A stretch of DNA of 17,905 nucleotides from Tardiphaga sp. Its GTDB lineage: Bacteria > Pseudomonadota > Alphaproteobacteria > Rhizobiales > Xanthobacteraceae. How positions within the stretch are numbered: the first letter of the stretch is position 1; the number at the start of each line of letters is the position of its first letter. The position numbers were made by a program, and so were the translations under genes. Positions 14,050-16,735 of this stretch are shown one piece after another. Under the pieces are notes generated by a model. It made no database searches and was not told the origin of the DNA. It saw only the letters and a list, made by a program, of their open reading frames with translations. The stretch lies in assembly GCA_028290765.1 (NCBI GenBank), contig JAQGJF010000107.1:1-17905 (forward strand). The letters are read 5' to 3'.

Positions 14050-14084
14050 TTGACCTAAACCGCTTCCTGGAACAAATTAAGAAC
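14050..14084 (+). promoter_or_regulatory. Predicted LexA-controlled promoter of first paralogue
   Basis: TTGACC (14050-14055) serves as -35. The box GAAC-AAATTAA-GAAC (14070-14084) covers the expected -10 (AAATTA at 14074-14079, 18-base spacer). GAAC-N7-GAAC, read on the other strand as GTTC-N7-GTTC, is the direct-repeat LexA operator known in alphaproteobacteria, and a LexA dimer here would block the promoter until DNA damage. The box ends 30 bases before the ATG at 14115. The same arrangement precedes the second paralogue. Confidence 0.75.
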
Positions 14085-14114
14085 ACGCCGGATCTCTAGT
14101 CCCGCGGAAGGAAA

Positions 14115-15323
14115 ATGACCGACAGCACAAAACTCGCCATCGATGCCATCAATCGAATCCATGACCTGTGGATGGTGGATAAGGACTGCGTCCAGTGGGT
14201 AGGTGACGCGTCCGCAAGCACGCTTCAGCACCAGGGCTTTGGTTTCAACTGGTGGCCGGGCGATTTCAAGGTTGAGCTTCGGGTTACCGGACCTCATCCG
14301 GAACTGGGGCCTGAACCCAACTATCGTTTGACCGTTCGAACCGATTTTCTTCGGGATGCGGATGTCACCCGTCCTAACTTTGGGCAGTATCTTTCGCACC
14401 TGAACAAGTTGACGCCCGCATTCGCCATTTGTGCTCATCCCGCAACAGATGCGGAAAACCTGGCCAAGTACGAACCGCTCCGCGAGTTCAGGCTTGATCT
14501 GAAGTCATCCAAAGTATGGCTCGCATCGACGGCTAATCTGCATGAGGGCGTAGAGCAATGGCTTCCTCATGCATTTGGGGTGCTTGCGATTCTGCAGCCG
14601 GTCGAAGCTCAGTTCCGAGCGGCGACCATGGCCCCGTTGCTGGGCGGCAAACCCGATCATTCGCGACCGCCGACGGGCGAAACCCCAGCCGCCATGGACA
14701 ACTTGATTGGCGTCGAACAAGCCATGCTCGAGCCACACGGGCAGCAGGCATGCAGGTGGGTAGGTACGGGAGAATTCGAAGCCATCATTGCAAAATGGGG
14801 ACAGTCCGATCATGGCTTTGGCCTCGCCGACTACATGGGCCTGACCATGGAGACACCGTTTGGTAACGAAACGGCGATGATTTCGCTGAGAACCGACCGG
14901 CCGCATCCTCGTCTCGGCAATGGTCTCACCGTGATCTTGTCGTTGCCGCACACCGCGGATGAGAGCACCCACGCTCTGACCAACCGGTTGAACTATCTTG
15001 AAGACCGCCTTCTGTCCAAGTTCAGCACGCCCTTGATAGGCAGTTGGCACGCAGTGGAGCTGACCGGATCCGGTTTTTCGCCAGAGTTCAACTTCTTCGT
15101 TCCCAACGTCCTTTATTTTCCGGACCTCGCTGAAAATCTCGTGCTTTACGCCATGGCGCGCGCAAAATGGGCACGCGAAATTTTGCGACCGGGCGCGGTC
15201 GACCTTCCGATGTACGAAATTCTGGAGAAGCGGTTTGGTCCGATCCCGCGGAAGGACACCAGAACAGGTGTCGCTGCAGGTTTATTTTCTGCCGCAAAAC
15301 GGTTGCTCCGCGGCCGCCACTAA
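14115..15323 (+). CDS. Unrecognised two-domain protein, predicted SOS-induced (paralogue A)
   Basis: A 402-residue soluble protein of a family I do not recognise, preceded by GGAAGGAAA close to the ATG. It seems to consist of two related halves. Half one (about 1-180) has VQWVG, FNWWPGDFKVELRV, PHPELG and RLTVRTDFL, then a helix, strands and a long helix ending near LLGGK. Half two (about 195-375) has CRWVGTGEFE, TAMISLRTDRPHPRLGNG and LTVILSLP, again followed by helix, strands and the helix AENLVLYAMARAKWAREIL. The order of strands and helices recalls YbjN / type III chaperone-like (TY-Chap) domains, but that is a fold impression only. The C-terminus is short and basic (SAAKRLLRGRH), possibly amphipathic. 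It is end-to-end similar to the next gene. LexA-type control suggests a role in the DNA-damage response. Confidence 0.85.
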   Translation: MTDSTKLAIDAINRIHDLWMVDKDCVQWVGDASASTLQHQGFGFNWWPGDFKVELRVTGPHPELGPEPNYRLTVRTDFLRDADVTRPNFGQYLSHLNKLTPAFAICAHPATDAENLAKYEPLREFRLDLKSSKVWLASTANLHEGVEQWLPHAFGVLAILQPVEAQFRAATMAPLLGGKPDHSRPPTGETPAAMDNLIGVEQAMLEPHGQQACRWVGTGEFEAIIAKWGQSDHGFGLADYMGLTMETPFGNETAMISLRTDRPHPRLGNGLTVILSLPHTADESTHALTNRLNYLEDRLLSKFSTPLIGSWHAVELTGSGFSPEFNFFVPNVLYFPDLAENLVLYAMARAKWAREILRPGAVDLPMYEILEKRFGPIPRKDTRTGVAAGLFSAAKRLLRGRH

Positions 15324-15379
15324 GTGATTTTCGTTTCTTCAGAGCCAAGCGCGGTCTGCTGCTCCAGCACAATCGATGA

Positions 15380-15413
15380 TTGACTCGTTTTTCGAAATGA
15401 ACAAAATAAGAAC
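15380..15413 (+). promoter_or_regulatory. Predicted LexA-controlled promoter of second paralogue
   Basis: TTGACT (15380-15385) and AAAATA (15403-15408), with a 17-base spacer, form the promoter. GAAC-AAAATAA-GAAC (15399-15413) covers the -10 and is a perfect alphaproteobacterial LexA direct repeat. It differs from the upstream box only in one spacer base. The box ends 29 bases before the ATG at 15443, against 30 for paralogue A. This means gene B has its own damage-inducible promoter rather than relying on readthrough. Confidence 0.75.
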
Positions 15414-15442
15414 ATAAGAAGCGATATTCATTGGAAGGGATA

Positions 15443-16735
15443 ATGTCCGACAGTACAGCGCTGGCCGTCGACGCCATCAAGACAATGCACGATATTTGGA
15501 AGGTCGATCCAGACCGTGTTCAGTGGATAGGAAACCCCGACGCGTTCGTTCACGAATTCTATGGATTCGATTGGTGGCCCTCCAATTTCAAGGTGGAAGT
15601 TCGTGTACATGGCCCGCATCCGGAATTAGATTCGCCGACATTTCGCCTGAGCGTCCGAACCGATTATCTTTGCGATGTCGACGTCAGCACACCGGAATTC
15701 AGGCATTACCTCTCTCATACGCACAATGCGTGGGCTCCGATATTTGCGACCTGCACGCATCCGACGGCACTATCCGAGGTTATAGAGCCGCACGGATCGC
15801 CGAGTGAGTTCGGGCTGGACTTCACGTCTACTGATGTGTGGCTTTGTTCCACAGCCTATCTGCAGGAATGGAATAAGGGCTGGCTTCCGCGGTTTCTGGC
15901 CATAGCTGCGACTATGCAGATAGCGGAATCCCAGTTCATGGCAGAGCAGATGACGTCCCGCCTCGGCGGGAAGGCGAATCGTTCGCAGCCTGTCGGGCGC
16001 GCTCCTTTAACCAGCCTGCCAAATCTGTTGAAAATTGAAAAATTCGAGATTCGTCCTCGCGGCGAGTTGCCAAGTGAGTGGATAGGCACGGGAGAATTTG
16101 AGAAAATCGTCGAGATGTTCGGACGTTTCAACCCCGGACTAGGCGAGGCAAGCGACCGGGGAGTCCGGATCATGGTCCCATTCGGCAAAAAAACAGCAAG
16201 GATCAACCTTCAGACAGACATACCGCATTTGCACTTTGGCAACGGCCTGCATGTTTTCTTGACTCTTCCTTATTCATCAGACTTCGACAGCCTGAGCACG
16301 CTCGCTAACGAGATGAACTACGCGGAGGACCGAACCTGGTGCAGGCATGGCATGCCGTTCATGGGTAGCTGGATCCCGGTGCAGAAGCATGACGAGACGC
16401 AGTATGAGCTCGCGTTCTGTTTGTTTATCCCAAATCTGTTTTATCAGCTCAATCTTGCGGAAATTTTTGTTTCATTTGCCATTCGGCGCGCCCGATGGGC
16501 TCGTGAATTCTTGTTGCCAAATTCGATCGACCTTCCGCTACGTGAGATACTCGAAGCGCAAAAGTCCAAGCCAACCCGCTCAGCCAATGCGGAGACTGTG
16601 GAACGATTGCCTCAAAAGGTTGTCAATTCGGCGGACAAATCCAGACAAACCAGCGCCTGGCGTGCGATCCTCGTCGCCGGCCTGTTAGCCGGCGTTCTGC
16701 TTCTGCTGGCTTTCTACCTGTCGAACAGGTCGTAG
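15443..16735 (+). CDS. Unrecognised two-domain protein with C-terminal membrane anchor, predicted SOS-induced (paralogue B)
   Basis: A 430-residue paralogue of the preceding gene. Shared blocks include WKVDPDRVQWIG, GFDWWPSNFKVEVRVHGPHP, RLSVRTDYL, YLSH, RLGGK, EWIGTGEFEKIV, DIPHLHFGNGLHVFLTLP, NYAEDR, GSW and RARWAREFLLP. The main difference is the C-terminus: after a polar linker (about 375-404) there is one hydrophobic helix at about 408-426 and a four-residue tail, the layout of a tail-anchored membrane protein with the globular part in the cytoplasm. Start chosen at ATG 15443, with GGAAGGG upstream; the frame opens at a TTG at 15431. Base composition is lower in GC than the flanking operon, for example 29 GC of 60 over 16441-16500 by hand count. 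Function unknown; a membrane-tethered damage-response effector is conceivable. Confidence 0.85.
   Translation: MSDSTALAVDAIKTMHDIWKVDPDRVQWIGNPDAFVHEFYGFDWWPSNFKVEVRVHGPHPELDSPTFRLSVRTDYLCDVDVSTPEFRHYLSHTHNAWAPIFATCTHPTALSEVIEPHGSPSEFGLDFTSTDVWLCSTAYLQEWNKGWLPRFLAIAATMQIAESQFMAEQMTSRLGGKANRSQPVGRAPLTSLPNLLKIEKFEIRPRGELPSEWIGTGEFEKIVEMFGRFNPGLGEASDRGVRIMVPFGKKTARINLQTDIPHLHFGNGLHVFLTLPYSSDFDSLSTLANEMNYAEDRTWCRHGMPFMGSWIPVQKHDETQYELAFCLFIPNLFYQLNLAEIFVSFAIRRARWAREFLLPNSIDLPLREILEAQKSKPTRSANAETVERLPQKVVNSADKSRQTSAWRAILVAGLLAGVLLLLAFYLSNRS

Follow-up and report, generated by a model that had tools for sequence, protein, structure and literature searches.

Two tandem paralogous genes with predicted LexA-repressed promoters in a Nitrobacteraceae-like bacterium

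The 17,905-nucleotide stretch of DNA analysed here (the window) is Nitrobacteraceae-like by sequence comparison, coming from a Bradyrhizobium-like bacterium, and it carries two tandem genes, A and B, each preceded by a perfect GAAC-N7-GAAC direct repeat. This arrangement is best read as LexA repression of both promoters, a prediction from sequence that we hold with high confidence. Somewhat less firmly, though still as the likely overall picture, we propose that A and B are each transcribed from a LexA-repressed promoter of their own, that the pair arose by duplication and that its products are two-domain proteins. In the SOS response, LexA represses its targets until DNA damage leads RecA to stimulate LexA self-cleavage. 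In our model, LexA bound to the direct repeat over the -10 region would block RNA polymerase at each promoter, and RecA-stimulated self-cleavage of LexA after damage would release both genes, so that A and B are probably damage-inducible.

Paired boxes and their ancestry

14050..14055, + strand, TTGACC, putative -35 of gene A, seen in the sequence and missed by a consensus promoter scan
14070..14084, + strand, LexA-type box A, GAACAAATTAAGAAC, a perfect GAAC-N7-GAAC
14115..15323, + strand, gene A, 402 residues, predicted soluble paralogue without a Pfam, NCBIfam or PADLOC match; fold proposed from 45% identity to B
15380..15407, + strand, TTGACT-N16-CAAAAT, promoter-like, gene B; consensus scan 9/12, box overlapping the -10
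15399..15413, + strand, LexA-type box B, GAACAAAATAAGAAC, a perfect GAAC-N7-GAAC
15443..16735, + strand, gene B, 430 residues, paralogue of A; two predicted YbjN/type-III-chaperone-like domains (residues ~1-178 and ~207-375)
16655..16729, + strand, predicted C-terminal membrane helix of B (residues 405-429; hydropathy 2.69)

Boxes A and B lie exactly where a sequence-only reading of this DNA had placed them, and they are the only perfect GAAC-N7-GAAC repeats on either strand of the whole window. Its distances also held: TTGAC starts at 14050 and 15380, 20 and 19 bases ahead of the starts of boxes A and B, and 30 and 29 bases separate the boxes from the ATG codons at 14115 and 15443. That each box covers a -10 element was borne out in part. 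The consensus scan gave a single match, at the gene B promoter (15380, 9/12), which is at chance level as shuffles average 0.7 matches, and it accepted nothing at the gene A promoter.

The further claim, that two independent copies of the box would be unlikely by chance, survives in a restricted form. By chance the bare pattern should turn up 0.61 times in a shuffled window, and because two or more copies occurred in 25 of 200 dinucleotide-preserving shuffles, it is not significant alone; it is weak evidence and insufficient as proof. Independence of the two boxes was rejected, since the genes are paralogous (170 of 377 alignment columns identical, 45%) and their promoter geometry agrees. What stood was the case from the A-rich core that both boxes share, GAACAAANNAAGAAC, which occurs 75 times in 18 related genomes, at least once in every genome, against 3 occurrences of a reversed-pattern control. 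Given 75 against 3, two such boxes in 18 kb are far above chance.

One ancestral promoter is the simplest account of 45% identical paralogues whose box-to-ATG spacings agree within one base, and most likely a single ancestral gene was duplicated along with its promoter. When the two promoters are aligned, 14 of the 15 box bases are the same and the flanks align poorly. So well-kept a box amid diverged flanks points to selection having acted on both copies of it.

The operator in related genomes

At the DNA level the SpoVR gene of the window is as much as 83% identical to genomes of the family that includes Bradyrhizobium sp. LHD-71, and on the strength of this likeness those relatives served as a proxy for the window's lineage. 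In them every one of 20 lexA loci has a perfect box upstream (12 of these boxes being GAACACATATGGAAC), as does every one of the 19 recA loci that exceeded the cut-off (in each case GAACATATTGCGAAC). The imuA-like genes have one at 16 of 17 loci and the main ssb at 17 of 17, while three further SSB homologues, L158-L160, are without a box. Every one of the 68 control boxes scored by script has the same sense as its gene. Cores of an intermediate kind, among them GAACATAATAAGAAC and GAACAAAACAGGAAC, occur at ssb and imuA loci. Because the perfect box stands ahead of all four of these genes, GAAC-N7-GAAC is, judged from relatives, the SOS operator of the window's group, and the proposal that recA, lexA and imuAB promoters might share it proved right for those genomes.

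These counts leave out the lexA rows L034 (below the cut-off) and L035 (the second piece of a split lexA), the recA fragments or weak matches L055-L057 and a weak fourth match in genome G199 that had no locus. L046, L129 and L146 were scored by hand as box-bearing, a contig edge having shifted their coordinates, and recA locus L054 was also added by hand. Four of the 18 genomes gave no imuA match and one gave no ssb match. The imuA query, from genome G156, matched NCBIfam ImuA (NF033429) at E 7.4e-16, yet under the model cut-off, and the remaining imuA loci were chosen by 34-80% identity to this query.

The operator form GTTCN7GTTC/GAACN7GAAC is stated for alphaproteobacteria in a passage of PMC3091678, and for Caulobacter in passages of PMC9578287 and PMC12700426. 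Among the papers listed by our literature search, none was on a Bradyrhizobium SOS regulon. Genes A and B resemble the alphaproteobacterial LexA/SOS regulon in operator form and in its predicted placement over the promoter, but they are not among the SOS genes identified in relatives, their family is undescribed, and their boxes have an A-rich core in place of the usual lexA and recA cores.

The A-rich core is nonetheless found at SOS genes, A-core boxes preceding radA in G221, ssb in G001 (with the very letters of box B) and imuA in G156. Of the 75 A-core places, 7 have the exact 15-mer of box A and 22 that of box B. On a scoring matrix built from 20 of the 23 distinct control boxes, with any box at most one change away from A or B excluded, boxes A and B reach 4.68 bits each (random P 0.006); with the near-A/B boxes kept, P falls to 0.0007-0.0008. 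In genome G003, 9 of the 100 sites listed (221 in all) score as high, A- and B-type boxes included. Boxes A and B thus sit in the SOS-like minority of GAAC-N7-GAAC sites, but not at its very top.

A rare family with a predicted chaperone-like fold

The family of A and B is rare, undescribed and patchily distributed. Neither protein has a match in Pfam (up to E 1), NCBIfam or PADLOC, and a protein search returned 44 proteins, B itself among them, out of 7,998 scored candidates, their names, where given, being 'hypothetical protein'. A scan of one genome per species for 84,980 species found four family loci (L001-L004); as it relies on conserved peptide words, it may overlook distant members. 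Profile searches covering 391, 397 and 274 genomes recovered only the genomes of these four loci again. No relative of gene B was found in plasmids, none of gene A in phages, and no match to the family alignment A2 in viral contigs.

Another tandem pair of family genes, with homologous upstream stretches, occurs in Bradyrhizobium sp. LHD-71 (L003:4529-7065). Its copy 1 carries a perfect box, GTTCATTATTTGTTC, in the opposite sense, ending 42 bases before the chosen ATG (L003:4586), and its copy 2 a degenerate one, ATCC-N7-GTTT. If the copy 1 box works, it was probably gained separately, since an opposite-sense direct repeat is hard to derive by point changes. No perfect box occurs in the upstream DNA fetched for L001, L002 and L004.

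The AlphaFold model of B has two successive YbjN/DR1245/type-III-chaperone-like domains followed by a C-terminal membrane helix, and both domains show structural likeness to YbjN, DR1245 and class I type III secretion chaperones. By this model B would be membrane-tethered through the helix, and A is predicted to be soluble; at 45% identity, we infer that A has a fold like that of B. Sequence comparison returned little. No relative was found in the PDB up to E 1, an hhalign comparison of the N- and C-terminal domains gave no sequence similarity between them (probability 0.3%), and neither A nor B matches the YbjN family (PF10722) up to E 1, with 1 of 42 family members matching it at E 0.038, under significance. 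The A/B family differs from YbjN in having two domains in a row. DR1245 of Deinococcus radiodurans is a single domain, of 149-152 residues in solved chains, with neither a second domain nor a membrane helix, and no sequence relation to it was found. Class I type III secretion chaperones (CesT, SycT, ExsC and others) share the fold of both B domains, but A and B are longer, with tandem domains and, in B, a membrane helix, and no secretion genes were recognised near them.

According to a passage of PMC3575483, DR1245 is a partner of DdrB, an SSB-like protein, in Deinococcus. By analogy, the products of A and B would bind and retain partners in the course of the damage response, in the way that DR1245 binds DdrB. 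We put forward only tentatively, as somewhat less probable than its opposite, a role in damage-induced client binding by a soluble and a membrane-tethered partner. A fuller version is possible but more doubtful still, in which an undescribed family with a double YbjN/type-III-chaperone fold was recruited to SOS, perhaps more than once (the window pair, and the LHD-71 pair with its opposite-sense box), its soluble and membrane-tethered partners holding or delivering, perhaps at the membrane, SSB-like clients or other damage-response proteins. A literature search for YbjN with LexA and SOS gave no related titles, and one for YbjN with DNA damage and chaperone gave the DR1245 paper as the only one with the terms in its title or abstract.

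Competing explanations and other A-core sites

Several observations weigh against this picture. A perfect box is present at 3 of the 7 family genes examined (window A, window B and LHD-71 copy 1); outside the window it is found at 1 of 5, in the opposite sense, and none of the five is a close orthologue. That LHD-71 box also runs opposite to all of the script-scored control boxes. Against a background of 41% GC, as in the spacer between A and B, the matrix P rises to ~0.012-0.013 and the cores are less special, and 8 of 60 A-core sites have no downstream open reading frame by the rule used, with many others lacking a recognisable gene. As to the proteins, the Foldseek E-values for the B domains are all >0.001, and a shared fold demonstrates no function. 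A passage of PMC3575483 further reports that removal of DR1245 slows growth threefold and leaves radioresistance intact, so that a repair phenotype would not have to follow even if the analogy is right.

Pfam searches on four neighbours of the pair gave PrkA, DUF444, SpoVR and LysR, neighbour names beyond these being a reading of translations alone. GC content at third codon positions (GC3) is 0.64 in gene A and 0.62 in gene B, a dip over 14115-16735 relative to the 0.75-0.91 of ten neighbours, and for this reason the pair looks foreign and was probably horizontally acquired. The LysR neighbour was sought in nine loci (L001-L009), all short, and none was seen; no empty site was demonstrable.

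The low GC3 and the very patchy distribution would also suit another role for the pair, as cargo (toxin-, defence- or element-related) that a mobile island carries and SOS induces, in place of a repair or chaperone function. We regard this as rather unlikely, though the most credible of the competitors, as PADLOC gave no match and relatives were absent from phages (gene A), plasmids (gene B) and viral contigs (alignment A2), in searches that did not extend to integrases or tRNAs. We hardly credit the reading that A and B serve effectors as genuine type III secretion chaperones. Many of the closest folds are such chaperones, but A and B are about three times the length of those listed (109-155 residues), B has a predicted membrane helix, and no secretion gene was recognised in the window, where open reading frame translations were read and Pfam was run on four neighbours only.

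Two further explanations concern the boxes. The repeat might be a relic, one site, functional or chance, having been copied with its gene and at least one copy being no longer under LexA. Paralogy means that the second box requires no selection, the bare pattern is common in shuffles and four of the seven family genes lack a perfect box; the near-identity of the boxes within diverged flanks and the strong enrichment of the A-rich core in relatives nevertheless make a relic improbable. Another regulator could use an operator of the GAAC-N7-GAAC form and be marked by the A-rich core, and this core is indeed unlike GAACACATATGGAAC and GAACATATTGCGAAC, with many A-core sites lying ahead of genes not known as SOS genes. 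However, A-core boxes also stand ahead of radA, imuA and ssb, and the intermediate cores GAACATAATAAGAAC and GAACAAAACAGGAAC occur at ssb and imuA loci, so that we think a second regulator quite improbable, more so than a relic. To our knowledge, many SOS-regulated genes have no known role. With LexA repression as the favoured reading, the pair offers two SOS candidates with a clear operator and, for one of them, a confident predicted fold, and the core GAACAAANNAAGAAC, which recurs in Nitrobacteraceae-like genomes, could be used to find further uncharacterised SOS genes there.

The downstream side was examined at 60 of the 75 A-core sites, leaving out 12 in G199, 2 in G090 and 1 in G030; with 12 A-core boxes, G199 has the most among the 18 genomes. 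A TTGAC 19-20 bases before the box was rejected as a general layout, this spacing being rare at the 60 sites, where a same-sense TTGAC lies near ten, at distances of 9 (five sites), 10 (one), 12 (two), 20 (one) and 25 (one). An A-core box also precedes dusA (G004), and in 11 genomes a glycosyltransferase-like gene follows one (L161, L167 and nine further loci); a PA0069-family radical-SAM gene, divergent from it in both loci checked, is an SOS-gene candidate. In 7 genomes (L069, L073, L097, L102, L111, L118 and L121) an A-core box, identical to box A in 5 of them, lies upstream of the gene for a small conserved protein that mostly begins MSTIAFDQFAL and matches nothing in Pfam or NCBIfam. In G236 (L162) an A-core box stands immediately ahead of a DUF5131 gene and then one further gene, which resembles what we take to be the usual three-Cys-motif partner. 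Mobile elements may carry the A-core box as well: in G097 (L089) one lies 163 bases ahead of a gene whose translation reads like an insertion-sequence transposase.
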